IMG/VR virus record: IMGVR_UViG_3300042429_000087
Span: 1-22,327 of that record
Length of the DNA stretch: 22,327 nt
Direction: 5' to 3' (one strand)
DNA from: a virus
Shown here: positions 2,105 to 14,011 of the stretch, in pieces
Numbering within the stretch: position 1 is the stretch's first letter
Layout of the letters: each line of letters opens with the position of its first letter
Program-made: the position numbers and the translations under genes
Notes under the pieces: generated by a model
The model's input: the letters and a program-made list of their open reading frames with translations, nothing else
Databases searched by the model: none
Told to the model about the DNA's origin: nothing

Positions 2105-2122
2105 TTAAAATATTTTAATAGT

Positions 2123-2156
2123 TTTGCACTTTGTATTGTGCATTGTTGTATATTTG
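2123..2156 (+). promoter_or_regulatory. Bacteroidetes-type promoter
   Basis: A perfect -7 element TATATTTG (TAnnTTTG consensus) lies at 2149-2156. TTTG at 2123-2126 is a candidate -33 element with a 22-base spacer, within the range reported for Flavobacterium-type promoters. Transcription would begin near 2163, giving a very short leader before the ATG at 2174. Confidence 0.6.
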
Positions 2157-2173
2157 TGTAAACAAAACACAAA

Positions 2174-2380
2174 ATGACACATTTAACCACCTACCAAATG
2201 TTCCAATATCAGCGATACGGGAACATATTAATCGACGGGGATAGGAGTACTACAAACCCCTATGACCCTGCCCTATTGCCTAAAAACTACGATTACGAAG
2301 ATGACGATTACACGTTTACTCGTTGGGTAGAACACAATGCAGAACTTGAACTTTTAAAAAACGAATTATATGAAGATTGA
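2174..2380 (+). CDS. hypothetical early protein
   Basis: This 68-residue acidic protein has a tyrosine/aspartate-rich centre (PKNYDYEDDDYTFTRW) and a helical C-terminus (NAELELLKNELYED). It is the first gene after the promoter at 2123-2156, and its leader AAACAAAACACA is shared with the gene at 13436. Being first in the unit suggests early expression. I do not recognise the family. Confidence 0.55.
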   Translation: MTHLTTYQMFQYQRYGNILIDGDRSTTNPYDPALLPKNYDYEDDDYTFTRWVEHNAELELLKNELYED

Positions 2381-3855: not shown

Positions 3856-4284
3856 ATGCTAAACAGAAAGAAGGATATATCAATAAGACAATTAAAGGAG
3901 TTATACTTCGCACAACGTAACACCCATTTGCAACTTCACGAAATGATGCAGCAGTTAGGGTTGTTAGGCATAGAAGATAATGAGCCTTTAGGGTTAGACA
4001 TTGGTGCGAGAACTATTGTCAAATTGGTAGACGAAGAGTTTGAGTGCGATGTATTAATTAAGGATAGGAGTTTAAAAACTACGTTCGGTCGCAAGGCTGC
4101 TGCTTACTTACTCAGGAGGTACACTAAGTTAAGCCTTAAGGAGATAAGCCAATACACAGGAACAAGCGACCATACAACGGCTATCCATAACATAAAACAA
4201 GCGAATAACCTAATAGAAACTGAGGACTGGTTTAAGACAAAACTAAAAAAACTTTGTTTAAAATTAGAACTTAAAGAAATTTAG
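3856..4284 (+). CDS. DnaA domain IV-like DNA-binding protein
   Basis: This is a 142-residue protein whose C-terminal half matches the DNA-binding domain of the DnaA initiator. It reads FGRKAAAYLLRRYTKLSLKEIS at about 77-98, then TGTSDHTTAIHNIK at 101-114, corresponding to the DnaA signature around DHTTV. There is no AAA+ ATPase domain; the N-terminal 60 residues are helical and unassigned. It could bind DnaA-box-like sites in the phage or host origin, as an initiation helper or competitor. It sits just upstream of the presumed replication initiator gene and candidate origin. The domain call is strong; the role is inferred. Confidence 0.75.
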   Translation: MLNRKKDISIRQLKELYFAQRNTHLQLHEMMQQLGLLGIEDNEPLGLDIGARTIVKLVDEEFECDVLIKDRSLKTTFGRKAAAYLLRRYTKLSLKEISQYTGTSDHTTAIHNIKQANNLIETEDWFKTKLKKLCLKLELKEI

Positions 4285-4286
4285 TG

Positions 4287-4294
4287 TATATTTG
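4287..4294 (+). promoter_or_regulatory. promoter -7 element (TATATTTG)
   Basis: A perfect TAnnTTTG element lies three bases after the DnaA-like gene stop. A clear TTTG -33 partner at the right distance is not visible, so strength is uncertain. The start would be near 4300-4303, immediately before the structured RNA region. Confidence 0.5.
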
Positions 4295-4300
4295 CAGTAT

Positions 4301-4395
4301 AATAAGACACATAGACGAACTGCGAACCGCCTATGTGTTTAGTGGTTAAATATAATAACCCTGGTAGTTCGCAGCTATCGGGGTTTATTTTTTTT
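4301..4395 (+). ncRNA. candidate structured RNA (small RNA or attenuator leader)
   Basis: Two hairpins follow the -7 element. Hairpin 1 pairs ACACATAG (4307-4314) with CTATGTGT (4331-4338) around a 16-base loop. Hairpin 2 pairs AACCCTGGTAG (4357-4367) with CTATCGGGGTT (4375-4385) around the loop TTCGCAG. The loop of hairpin 1 contains CTGCGAAC (4320-4327), the exact complement of GTTCGCAG (4367-4374) in hairpin 2. The RNA could therefore form a kissing complex or switch to an alternative fold. It ends in a U-rich tract. It may be a free-standing sRNA or the regulated leader of the gene at 4396. Confidence 0.5.
4357..4395 (+). terminator. intrinsic terminator / attenuator before the replication gene
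   Basis: An 11-pair stem (4357-4367 with 4375-4385, two G-U pairs, seven-base loop) is followed by TTTATTTTTTTT (4384-4395). This is a good rho-independent terminator. The ATG of the next gene begins at 4396, so reading into that gene from the upstream promoter would require read-through or anti-termination. Confidence 0.65.
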
Positions 4396-5130
4396 ATGGC
4401 AAAAGACCCAGCATTTTTATTTTACCCAGGCGACTATGTTAGTGGCACAATGGGAATGACATTTGAAGAAAAAGGAGCATATATGGACTTACTTATGCTT
4501 CAATTCAATCGTGGTCATATGAATACTCATATGATACAACATACGATAGGACACTTGTGGGAACAAGTGAAATCCAAATTTATACAAGATGACGAAGGTT
4601 TATGGTACAATGTAAGGCTTGATTATGAAAAAGAAAAGCGTAAAACCTTTACAGAATCAAGGAGAAACAATATGAAACCTAAAAACAAACCTAAAGAAAA
4701 TGTATCATATGAAACGCATATGCAACCTCATATGATAGCTCATATGGAAAATGTAAATGAAAATACAAATAAAGATATAATTAATAATAAAAGTAAATGT
4801 AGTTTTGAGCAAGTTTACGAATATATGGCTAATAAAATTAATTTAGATTTAGCTAAAATAGAAGCGGAAAAGTTCGTAAATTACTACGAAAGTAACGGGT
4901 GGAAAGTAGGCAAGAACCCTATGAAAAGTTGGTCAGCAGCAGCAAATAATTGGATAACTAACACTAAACAATATGCAAAAGGAACTACAAACAATAAGCC
5001 AAAACTTAATAAACACGAACTCGACAACCTTAGAAACTACAACTATATCCACTCTACTTCCTATGGAGAAGGAGATTATGAAAAGCTTTTCGGGGGAGAG
5101 GGTACGCAATCTGAATACTACAATATTTAA
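4396..5130 (+). CDS. DUF1376-type phage replication initiation protein
   Basis: The 244-residue product starts MAKDPAFLFYPGDYVSG and continues TFEEKGAYMDLLML, the DUF1376 signature seen in phage replication/helicase-loading proteins. The C-terminal part has FVNYYESNGWKVG, then MKSWSAAANNWI, typical of the replisome-organizer C-terminus. Between them lies a low-complexity His-Met and Asn-rich linker (about residues 95-135 of the product). The start at 4396 is chosen because the domain begins there; 21 more codons are open upstream to 4333 but fall in the RNA hairpins. The linker DNA holds the candidate origin. Domain recognition is good; the biochemical step is not proven. Confidence 0.75.
   Translation: MAKDPAFLFYPGDYVSGTMGMTFEEKGAYMDLLMLQFNRGHMNTHMIQHTIGHLWEQVKSKFIQDDEGLWYNVRLDYEKEKRKTFTESRRNNMKPKNKPKENVSYETHMQPHMIAHMENVNENTNKDIINNKSKCSFEQVYEYMANKINLDLAKIEAEKFVNYYESNGWKVGKNPMKSWSAAANNWITNTKQYAKGTTNNKPKLNKHELDNLRNYNYIHSTSYGEGDYEKLFGGEGTQSEYYNI
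4516..4800. other. candidate replication origin (CATATG iterons plus AT-rich stretch)
   Basis: CATATG occurs six times: at 4516, 4528, 4706, 4717, 4729 and 4741. Spacings are 12, then 11, 12 and 12 bases within the two groups, close to one helical turn. Bases 4747-4800, right after the last copy, are about 87% A+T (7 G/C in 54), as expected of an unwinding element. The arrangement inside the initiator gene resembles lambda ori within gene O. The alternative is that it merely encodes a His-Met-rich linker. Confidence 0.45.
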
Positions 5131-10162: not shown

Positions 10163-10674
10163 TACAAAACGTACCAATCAACACAGTTAAAGCAAACCCT
10201 AACAATCCCAGAATAATCAAAGACGATAAGTTTGCAAAACTTGTAAAGTCAATAAACGAGTTTCCTGAAATGCTTAAGCTTAGACCTATCGTAGTTAATG
10301 ACGATATGGTTGTTCTTGGTGGCAATATGAGATTAAAGGCTTGTAAAGAAGCGGGACTTAAAGAGATACCTATTATCAAAGCAAGTGAACTAACCGAGCA
10401 GCAGCAAAAGGAATTTATAGTTAAAGACAACGTAGGCTATGGCGAATGGGATTGGAACGATTTAGCGAATAATTGGGATAGTGAGCAACTAATAGATTGG
10501 GGTTTAGACATACCTGGTTTTAAAATAGAAGAAGAAAAGGAAATGGAAGATTTATCTGACAAATTAAAATCAGAATTTAAGATTGAAATTATTTGCAGAG
10601 ACGAAGCAGAACAAGAGCAAACATATAATAAACTTATAGAACAAAACTACGAATGCCGACTTTTAACATTGTAA
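10159..10674 (+). CDS. ParB/Srx-like nuclease domain protein
   Basis: This 171-residue protein has an N-terminal ParB-like domain: VPINTVKANPNNPR at 5-18, then LRPIVVNDDMVVLGGNMRLKAC at 41-62 in the ParB nuclease order (GGNMR carries the conserved arginine, R58), then EAGLKEIPIIKA. The acidic C-terminal region (WDWNDLANNWDSEQLIDWG) is the same type found in phage ParB-like proteins fused or adjacent to DNA methylases. Here the neighbour is instead an ABC-ATPase/GNAT fusion, with which it overlaps by 22 bases. DNA or nucleotide hydrolysis is expected from the family; the partner role is inferred. Confidence 0.8.
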   Translation: MIQNVPINTVKANPNNPRIIKDDKFAKLVKSINEFPEMLKLRPIVVNDDMVVLGGNMRLKACKEAGLKEIPIIKASELTEQQQKEFIVKDNVGYGEWDWNDLANNWDSEQLIDWGLDIPGFKIEEEKEMEDLSDKLKSEFKIEIICRDEAEQEQTYNKLIEQNYECRLLTL

Positions 10675-11732
10675 AAACAGCCGAACCTAAAAAAACTTTT
10701 AGGGTATCTTCCGTAATGGGTAAGTTTGATTTGGAAAGCAATCAAATTAAAGAACATTTTGAAGGTAACATAGACATTAAAGATAATTGGCAAATAGGTT
10801 TAATAGTTGGCAAAAGCGGTAGCGGTAAAACTACAATAGCAAAACAATTATTTCCTGACTCTTATATAACCAATTTTGAATATAATGCAGAAACTATTTT
10901 AGACGATATGCCTAAAGAATGCTCAGTTGAAGATATAACAAAAGCATTTAATTCTGTTGGCTTTAGTTCCCCACCTTCTTGGTTAAAGCCATATTCCGTT
11001 CTATCAAATGGAGAAAAAATGAGGGTAGACCTTGCCCGTGCTATTTTATCAGAAGATAATTTATTTGTATTTGATGAATTTACAAGCGTAGTAGATAGAA
11101 ACGTAGCACAAATTGGCTCATTTGCAATGCAAAAAGCAATTAGAAAAACATCAAAACAATTCATAGCAGTTACTTGCCATTATGATGTTGAGGATTGGCT
11201 ATTGCCAGATTGGGTATTTGATACAGACACTATGACCTTTCGTAACTGCGAAGGGCAAAAAAAAAATAGACCAGAAATTAAATTCGAGATATTCCAAACA
11301 GACGATAAGTCAGTCTGGAAAATGTTTGCTAAGCATCATTATTTAAGCCATAGTCATAATAATGCAGCAAAGGTATTTTTGGCTTATGTTAATAATCAAT
11401 TAGCAGGTTTTATATCAGTATTTCATTTTCCTCACCCAAAAGTAAAAAACTTTAAAACTGTTCATAGATTAGTTATATTACCTGATTATCAAGGACTTGG
11501 AATAGGAGTTATGTTTTTAAATGAAATTGGTAAAATATATAAAAGTGAAAAATGGAGATTTACAATTATAACATCAGCTCCAAGTTTAATGTTTGCCTTA
11601 AAAAAATCTAAATTATGGGCTTTAAAACAATTTGGAAGGAAGCCTCCTCAAAATATAAATACAGGTAATCCAATTAGTACAAGAAAATCAGATAGCTCTA
11701 ATAGATTAACAACAAGTTGGGAAATGATATAA
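10653..11732 (+). CDS. ABC-type ATPase fused to GNAT acetyltransferase (COG2401-like)
   Basis: This is a 359-residue two-domain protein. The ABC domain (about 45-200) has Walker A GKSGSGKTT (53-61), signature LSNGEKMRVDLARA (117-130), Walker B LFVFDE (137-142) and the H-loop H176. There are no membrane spans, so it is not a transporter. The GNAT domain (about 210-330) has KHHYLS (227-232), FISVFHFPHPK and motif A RLVILPDYQGLGIG (272-285). The architecture matches the ABC-ATPase/acetyltransferase fusions of COG2401. A modification role, possibly on DNA as for the GNAT-like Mom of phage Mu, is inference. An A10 run lies at the domain junction. The DNA is AT-rich relative to the terminase genes. 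Confidence 0.82.
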   Translation: MPTFNIVKTAEPKKTFRVSSVMGKFDLESNQIKEHFEGNIDIKDNWQIGLIVGKSGSGKTTIAKQLFPDSYITNFEYNAETILDDMPKECSVEDITKAFNSVGFSSPPSWLKPYSVLSNGEKMRVDLARAILSEDNLFVFDEFTSVVDRNVAQIGSFAMQKAIRKTSKQFIAVTCHYDVEDWLLPDWVFDTDTMTFRNCEGQKKNRPEIKFEIFQTDDKSVWKMFAKHHYLSHSHNNAAKVFLAYVNNQLAGFISVFHFPHPKVKNFKTVHRLVILPDYQGLGIGVMFLNEIGKIYKSEKWRFTIITSAPSLMFALKKSKLWALKQFGRKPPQNINTGNPISTRKSDSSNRLTTSWEMI

Positions 11733-13341: not shown

Positions 13342-13405
13342 TGCAACAAAATTGCAAAAATAATTCATTATTTATTTTGTGGATTGTGTAAAAGTTGTAT
13401 ATTTA
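13342..13405 (+). promoter_or_regulatory. second early-type regulatory box and promoter
   Basis: TGCAACA (13342-13348), three bases, then TTGCAAAAATAATT (13352-13365) repeats the box at 2081-2104. It is followed by TTTG (13376-13379), an 18-base spacer and the -7 element TATATTTA (13398-13405, one mismatch to TAnnTTTG). TTGTATATTT and the leader AAACAAAACACA are also shared with the first region. The gene at 13436 begins about 25 bases after the predicted start of transcription. Confidence 0.6.
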
Positions 13406-13435
13406 CATATCAATTAACCACAAAAACAAAACACA

Positions 13436-14011
13436 ATGACAAATCTAATTGAAAAGTACGAAAATTTAGGTTACACATTAACCTTAAAAAATGAGCCTAT
13501 GATTATAGGCACTTGCGTAAGAAAAGTTAGCAGAGCTAAAATACCTAACCCATTATTTAACTACAGATTTAGAAGCATTGACAGAATGATTGAGTTCTGT
13601 ACTGAATGGATTAATAAAGTAGAAATTAACGTAAATGCTGAAAACGAAAGGAAAGCTAAGAAAAAAGAGGCTCAAAAAAATATGCAGCATAATTACAAGG
13701 TAGGCGATATAATTTACAATAGTTGGGGATATGACCAAACTAACATAGATTTTTATCAAATAGTACAAGTTAAAGCTAAGTCAATTATGATTAATAGAAT
13801 AGGAAAATGCTATGTAGAAGGAACTGAGGGTTTTATGTCATCAAACGTTAAACCAATTAAAAATGATTTTATTGGAACTGCAATTTTGAAAAAAGTAAAT
13901 ATTTTAGTAAATTACAACGGCAATATACAATATTACATTAAAGCAGACCACGGATGTTTTGTTGAGTATCACAATGAAAATTCTGGTGTATACTCAAGTT
14001 GGTACGCTTAA
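13436..14011 (+). CDS. hypothetical protein under the duplicated promoter
   Basis: This 191-residue protein has an N-terminal helical part with a lysine-rich segment (ENERKAKKKEAQKN, about 69-82). A beta-rich part follows with YKVGDIIYNSWGYDQTNIDF and YQIVQVKAKSIMINRIG (about 87-123). The latter is a recurring module in phage and plasmid proteins of unknown function (VGDIxxxSWGYDQTNxxFY). It ends with ADHGCFVEYH. No catalytic motif is seen. Its promoter matches the one before 2174, so early co-regulation with that operon is expected. Confidence 0.6.
   Translation: MTNLIEKYENLGYTLTLKNEPMIIGTCVRKVSRAKIPNPLFNYRFRSIDRMIEFCTEWINKVEINVNAENERKAKKKEAQKNMQHNYKVGDIIYNSWGYDQTNIDFYQIVQVKAKSIMINRIGKCYVEGTEGFMSSNVKPIKNDFIGTAILKKVNILVNYNGNIQYYIKADHGCFVEYHNENSGVYSSWYA

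Follow-up and report, generated by a model that had tools for sequence, protein, structure and literature searches.

The virus record analysed here (IMGVR_UViG_3300042429_000087, 22,327 bases, in the following called the window) carries an ERF recombinase, an ORF with a DnaA C-terminal (DnaA_C) domain, a VRR-NUC nuclease and a large terminase, which has Flavobacterium psychrophilum phages, with about 40% identity, among its closest matches to named phages. In a further ORF of the window (10653-11732), the N-terminal half matches an ABC-type ATPase and the C-terminal half a GNAT acetyltransferase. The element under study lies on the plus strand between the ORF with the DnaA C-terminal DNA-binding domain (3856-4284, + strand; Pfam Bac_DnaA_C, E 1.9e-11), the 3' end of which overlaps the promoter region, and a replication-type gene (4396-5130, + strand). 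The N-terminus of the latter is DUF1376-related (Pfam DUF1376, E 8.6e-06, below the family's cut-off) and the gene matches PHROG 9327 and 3992, both primosomal, in agreement with a previous reading of the letters alone (the sequence-only reading), which had placed the element before a replication gene.

All parts of the element are encoded on the plus strand. The promoter box TATATTTG (4287-4294) fits TAnnTTTG, the reported Bacteroidota -7 consensus (PMC7366714). A strict -33 TTG at 17-23 nt from the box was not found in the window, which has TTA there; TTG is present in some relatives. Hairpin H1 (4307-4338) consists of 10 bp with one internal mismatch and a 10-nt loop (4318-4327), which contains the segment CUGCGAA (4320-4326). 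The H1 3' arm and the conserved single-stranded linker behind it span 4331-4356 (linker core at about 4339-4356, UUAGUGGUUAAAUAUAAU) and are followed by hairpin H2 (4357-4385; stem AACCCTGGTAG / CTATCGGGGTT) with the 7-nt loop UUCGCAG (4368-4374) and by the U tract TTTATTTTTTTT (4384-4395; T run 4388-4395), which ends at the ATG. Both hairpins appear in the 114-nt fold (MFE -31.9 kcal/mol, z -2.91; equal stability in 3 of 200 shuffles), and a consensus terminator scan recovered H2 independently of the fold. With its G+C-rich stem (4357-4385) and a T tract running to 4395, H2 has the form of an intrinsic terminator whose U tract abuts the ATG at 4396, as had been proposed; the positions that had been given hold at base level as well. 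The same applies to the claimed perfect complementarity of the loops over 8 bases, since CTGCGAAC (4320-4327) is the exact reverse complement of GTTCGCAG (4367-4374). The conserved loop pairing, CUGCGAA/UUCGCAG, comprises 7 bp and is thus one base pair shorter than the complementarity in the window; the eighth pair, C4327-G4367, is absent from some types and takes up the closing base of the terminator. Predicted loop-duplex energies lie between about -6.5 and -11 kcal/mol. On the minus strand of window 4299-4338, H1 is followed by a T-rich stretch, and in some relatives H1 looks terminator-like in this opposite direction.

A search with the downstream protein led to 80 viral loci, and wherever these reached far enough upstream, the element was located directly 5' of the ATG. 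An independent search with the upstream DnaA_C ORF yielded 80 loci, all of which (80/80) kept the linker TTTAGTGGTTAAAT downstream, and a search with the linker pattern matched at least 119 viral stretches; the same design is present in hundreds of related viral fragments. From the relatives grouped as clade A, 41 distinct element patterns were sorted and 40 distinct sequences entered the covariation alignment. Covariation, which had been suggested as a check, was evident here: the kissing helix (4320-4326 with 4368-4374) was Watson-Crick paired in 99.3% of cells, contained no G-U pair and showed two-sided changes in five of its seven pairs. H1 (99.3% of cells paired) exhibited two-sided changes in 3 of 10 pairs and H2 (98.5%) in three pairs. 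The whole structure was paired in 99.0% of cells, compared with 34-43% when the partners were slid by 1-3 columns; our conclusion is based on the two-sided changes and on this slid comparison, because shuffle counts are inflated by the kinship of the sequences. Six paired loop types were found in clade A (CUGCGAA/UUCGCAG, GUACGAA/UUCGUAC, CUACGAA/UUCGUAG, GAGCGAA/UUCGCUC, AGUCGAG/CUCGACU and AGUCCAG/CUGGACU), the first loop being of the NN-7-N form with a CG/CG or GG/CC closure and the second, that of H2, measuring 7 nt. A loop mismatch, of one base each, occurred in only two (L123 and L194) of the 41 patterns. Two hairpin loops are thus held complementary by compensatory change, and from this comparison of relatives the complementarity is not a product of chance. 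Columns 27-46 of the alignment (H1 3' arm and linker) were invariant or nearly so, the terminator form was conserved, and the U tract touched or closely preceded the start codon in all types, including those with an endonuclease downstream. Taken at the level of the alignment, there is firm ground for both stems, for an evolutionary constraint on the loop pairing, for the form of the terminator and for the position before the gene.

The sequence-only reading had further considered a switch between a kissing, terminating form and an alternative pairing that breaks the terminator. The former is supported by the loop covariation, the latter conflicts with the limits of the pairing. In every type the complementarity ends at the loop borders; it is exactly loop-long, because the bordering columns 13 and 70 are always A and C, which cannot pair, and only some types allow a pair between column 21 and the closing base of H2. 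Furthermore, H1 and H2 covary independently of each other, and a conserved alternative antiterminator helix, as expected of an attenuator switch, was not found in the clade A alignment. These limits fit a putative kissing complex that contains the terminator, not a switch whose bases open it. A GGUUA/UAACC hairpin was considered as an alternative fold and rejected, being weak and not kept in all types.

More distant phages were reached via replication genes with other N-terminal domains. Many of them lack the clade A linker, yet carry box, H1, linker and H2 with U tract before the ATG; with other linkers and loops, the same layout precedes MAKRFTD, Lin1244 and MAKDP replication genes or an HNH ORF in front of them. 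An automated scan upstream of replication genes detected H1 plus terminator in 12 cases, the window's own element included, and all 12 showed 6-9 complementary loop nucleotides. As a control, 535 hairpin-plus-terminator sites in the loci were inspected, the elements among them: pairs of at least 7 nt occurred only in these elements, and a single unrelated site reached a 6-nt loop pair. A second large family (family B), found with the pattern AACTTATTGSCYCNNRGMTGAA, comprised 119 usable contig sites, of which 118 had a perfect 7-nt loop pair, in four loop types; at the remaining site (L540) the H1 loop was lost. The terminator of this family (L502-L581) is interrupted by a conserved internal loop (AAAGCUGAA / GGAAGCCGA); tandem G-A pairs may form in it, and a protein or ligand could bind there. 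Several small families share the layout as well, mostly before replication-type genes. For the 18 loop pairs collected overall, which are not fully independent and some of which come from small families initially chosen by eye, the own complementarity was 6-9 nt, and 300 of the 306 cross pairs remained below 6 nt. One linker match, in a Bacteroidetes MAG (L196/L219), also had a terminator next to it, but was rejected as an ordinary host 3' end with no complementary hairpin.

In nearly all clade A elements TAnnTT[TC]G is located 7-20 nt upstream of H1 (142 boxes were counted, about 32 of them at chance matches to the linker in bacteria). Family B has its -7 box only 3-5 nt away from H1, and this short distance should make H1 the 5' end of the RNA. 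In the window, the position of the box would place the transcription start near 4300, and the layout predicts both a leader mRNA and a free sRNA from one promoter.

With respect to the neighbouring genes, the ORF upstream of clade A elements was DnaA_C in all 167 loci with enough flank, and the downstream ORF was of five kinds (DUF1376-like, MAKRFTD, Lin1244_N, HNH and GIY-YIG). The replication proteins have a common C-terminus and a swapped N-terminal domain; the window gene (4396-5130) together with L083, L101, L114 and L132 shows this modular build, with DUF1376-like, MAKRFTD or Lin1244_N N-termini on the shared C-terminus. In some relatives an HNH or GIY-YIG ORF has been inserted at the exact junction of the U tract and the replication gene, which suggests, from these arrangements, that this point is a recombination hot spot. 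Across families the upstream gene varies (DnaA_C, HTH or others), and outside clade A too a replication-type gene follows, either directly or behind an HNH ORF. Since the upstream genes differ and the downstream type stays, the position directly before the replication operon is the shared property.

We interpret the element, with moderate confidence, as a kissing-loop attenuator leader whose terminator would be tuned in cis by the kiss and which would also yield an RNA of about 90-95 nt. From the promoter just upstream, transcripts would begin at the base of H1 or close to it. Both hairpins would then fold and their loops kiss over 7 bp, a pairing supported by the covariation, presumably giving a compact rod with its two far ends joined by the conserved linker. 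Most transcripts would stop at the U tract to give the short RNA, and a minority would read through into the replication gene, the AUG of which directly follows the U tract and would be translated without a Shine-Dalgarno sequence. Most likely the kiss tunes the efficiency or timing of the terminator in cis and keeps the replication protein low until read-through is raised by a factor that binds or otherwise acts on linker or loops, and the released short RNA may have further roles. Promoter use, termination, read-through, the kiss in cis and control of the replication protein are steps that we infer from the layout; the attenuator reading is supported by the link to a downstream replication gene, the one link common across families. 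Three results speak against it. The five kinds of downstream ORF in clade A, HNH and GIY-YIG endonucleases included, would also fit an autonomous sRNA gene. Most of the divergent replication genes that were inspected lacked the leader, which is therefore not needed for the replication gene in general. Finally, the element was missing from 33 replication-gene loci in Bacteroidota genomes (prophage-like loci included) and from isolated phages with related replication proteins (six phage-collection records scanned). A covariance model (R1) gave no match at 1e-6 in 395 Bacteroidota genomes, a set with no positive control.

Alternatively, the RNA may be an autonomous trans-acting sRNA, with H1 and H2 as cap and clamp and the invariant linker (core GUGGUUAA) pairing with phage or host mRNAs, while the replication gene is expressed otherwise or via leaky read-through. 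We consider this unlikely, although it is the most serious of the competing readings: the layout is compact and sRNA-like, and conservation is much stronger in the linker than in the loops. The plus strand of the window has three copies of TTAACCAC, a sequence complementary to the linker core, two of them at gene starts, namely in codons 4-6 of gene 2174 and 11-22 nt upstream of the ATG at 13436; the TTA ACC codons are invariant in 71 distinct gene 2174 sequences, and pairing with start regions was better than for 195 of 200 shuffled linkers. These statistics are weak, as the shuffles were mononucleotide shuffles of an AU-rich seed, and the target search is suggestive only. In addition, part of the site is lost in several gene 2174 relatives, it is altered in both relatives of gene 13436, and the linkers of the other families are unrelated, whereas the position before the replication gene is kept. 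Both genes (window 2119-2200 and 13390-13440) also share a similar promoter and leader (TATATTT..., AACAAAACACAA-ATGACA), each with the TTAACCAC site. Feedback in trans, in which the loops of the terminated RNA kiss other nascent leaders so that termination rises with the phage copy number, appears improbable to us. It would make the loop types compatibility groups, as in plasmid copy control or the P1/P4 immunity RNAs, and would agree with the position before replication genes and with loops that vary more than any other part but are always self-complementary (at least 18 loop pairs). Within one molecule, however, the two loops lie near each other, and for this reason cis pairing should win over trans; the complementarity ends at the loops, so that no extended duplex is possible; and no conserved antisense promoter box (TAnnTTTG) was present within 400 nt. 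Equally doubtful is, in our view, the broader proposal of a widespread, undescribed class of phage RNA, in which the terminator loop is bound by the loop of the first hairpin and the released RNA feeds back on nascent leaders. If true, one RNA would be both target and regulator of replication, and the loop sequence would set phage compatibility groups.

Two further readings carry very little weight. The element could act at the DNA level, as a binding site or origin structure of the upstream DnaA_C-domain protein with repeats that merely resemble RNA loops, and indeed the upstream ORF carries this domain and the reverse complement of the linker contains, as read from the sequence, two overlapping 7-of-9 matches to the DnaA box. 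This is very improbable, since independent stem and loop covariation, the terminator with its U tract and the promoter box all point to RNA, and family B and other families lack this linker, their upstream ORFs read so far not being DnaA_C; the consensus DnaA box TTATNCACA was not found in the window. Slightly less probable still is a translated leader peptide, MCLVVK (ATG 4333), whose ribosome would open the terminator. In most relatives ATGTGTTTAGTGGTTAAATAATAATAA does provide a six-codon ORF ending just before H2, but its stop is lost in the window and in other loci with the TAAATATAATAACC variant (7 entries), and the linkers of other families contain no such ORF.

The element fits no Rfam family: Rfam 15 gave no match at the gathering score in the window or in 14 divergent loci, and the best match of a permissive scan reached 17.8 bits against a cut-off of 49. 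The c4 antisense RNA of P1/P7 (RF01695) and the P4 CI RNA are derived from phage leaders and control expression by pairing and premature termination. Here, by contrast, the complement lies within the terminator loop itself and not at separate target sites, and the RF01695 covariance model matched neither the window, also in the permissive scan, nor the 14 divergent loci. Attenuation of the pT181/pIP501 type likewise uses a leader with an intrinsic terminator before a plasmid replication initiator gene, but depends on an antisense RNA counter-transcribed from the opposite strand, together with an antiterminator that excludes the terminator; neither is conserved here. The likeness to plasmid copy-control RNAs put forward by the sequence-only reading is not upheld as far as promoters of the TAnnTTTG type are concerned: classical copy control needs an antisense transcript, and no conserved minus-strand TAnnTTTG box was found near the element. 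Among 23 distinct relatives sharing the gene type, 4 had such a box 180 nt past the ATG and 6 had one at 290 nt, none being conserved throughout. In the ColE1 RNA I/RNA II kiss, 7-nt loops are paired over their full length, but these loops are on two fully complementary RNAs, whereas the present element is one RNA, complementary in the loops only. The closest precedent is IsrK of the Salmonella Gifsy-1 prophage, where a single phage promoter yields a short RNA that ends at an intrinsic terminator and, through read-through, a longer mRNA (PMC4825925). IsrK acts through orf45/anrP and antQ, and the abstract and outline of that study mention no terminator-loop kissing (PMC4825925). No description of such an element was found in the open literature, which is weak evidence, most subscription journals being outside this scope. 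The parts are of known kinds; their combination, a terminator loop bound by its own first hairpin before phage replication genes, appears to be new.

Bacteroidota phages are very abundant and poorly understood, and RNA control of phage replication is, to our knowledge, known from few systems, mostly enterobacterial ones. The loop pairs swap while the complementarity stays, and thereby offer ready-made natural compensatory mutants across several phage lineages. They raise the testable question of whether a loop-loop contact sets the strength of an intrinsic terminator, and such leaders would extend the toolbox of RNA-controlled transcription by an orthogonal family of parts. Given its recurrence in hundreds of viral fragments and the lack of a fitting Rfam family, the element is probably an undescribed switch that limits the timing or strength of the start of phage replication.
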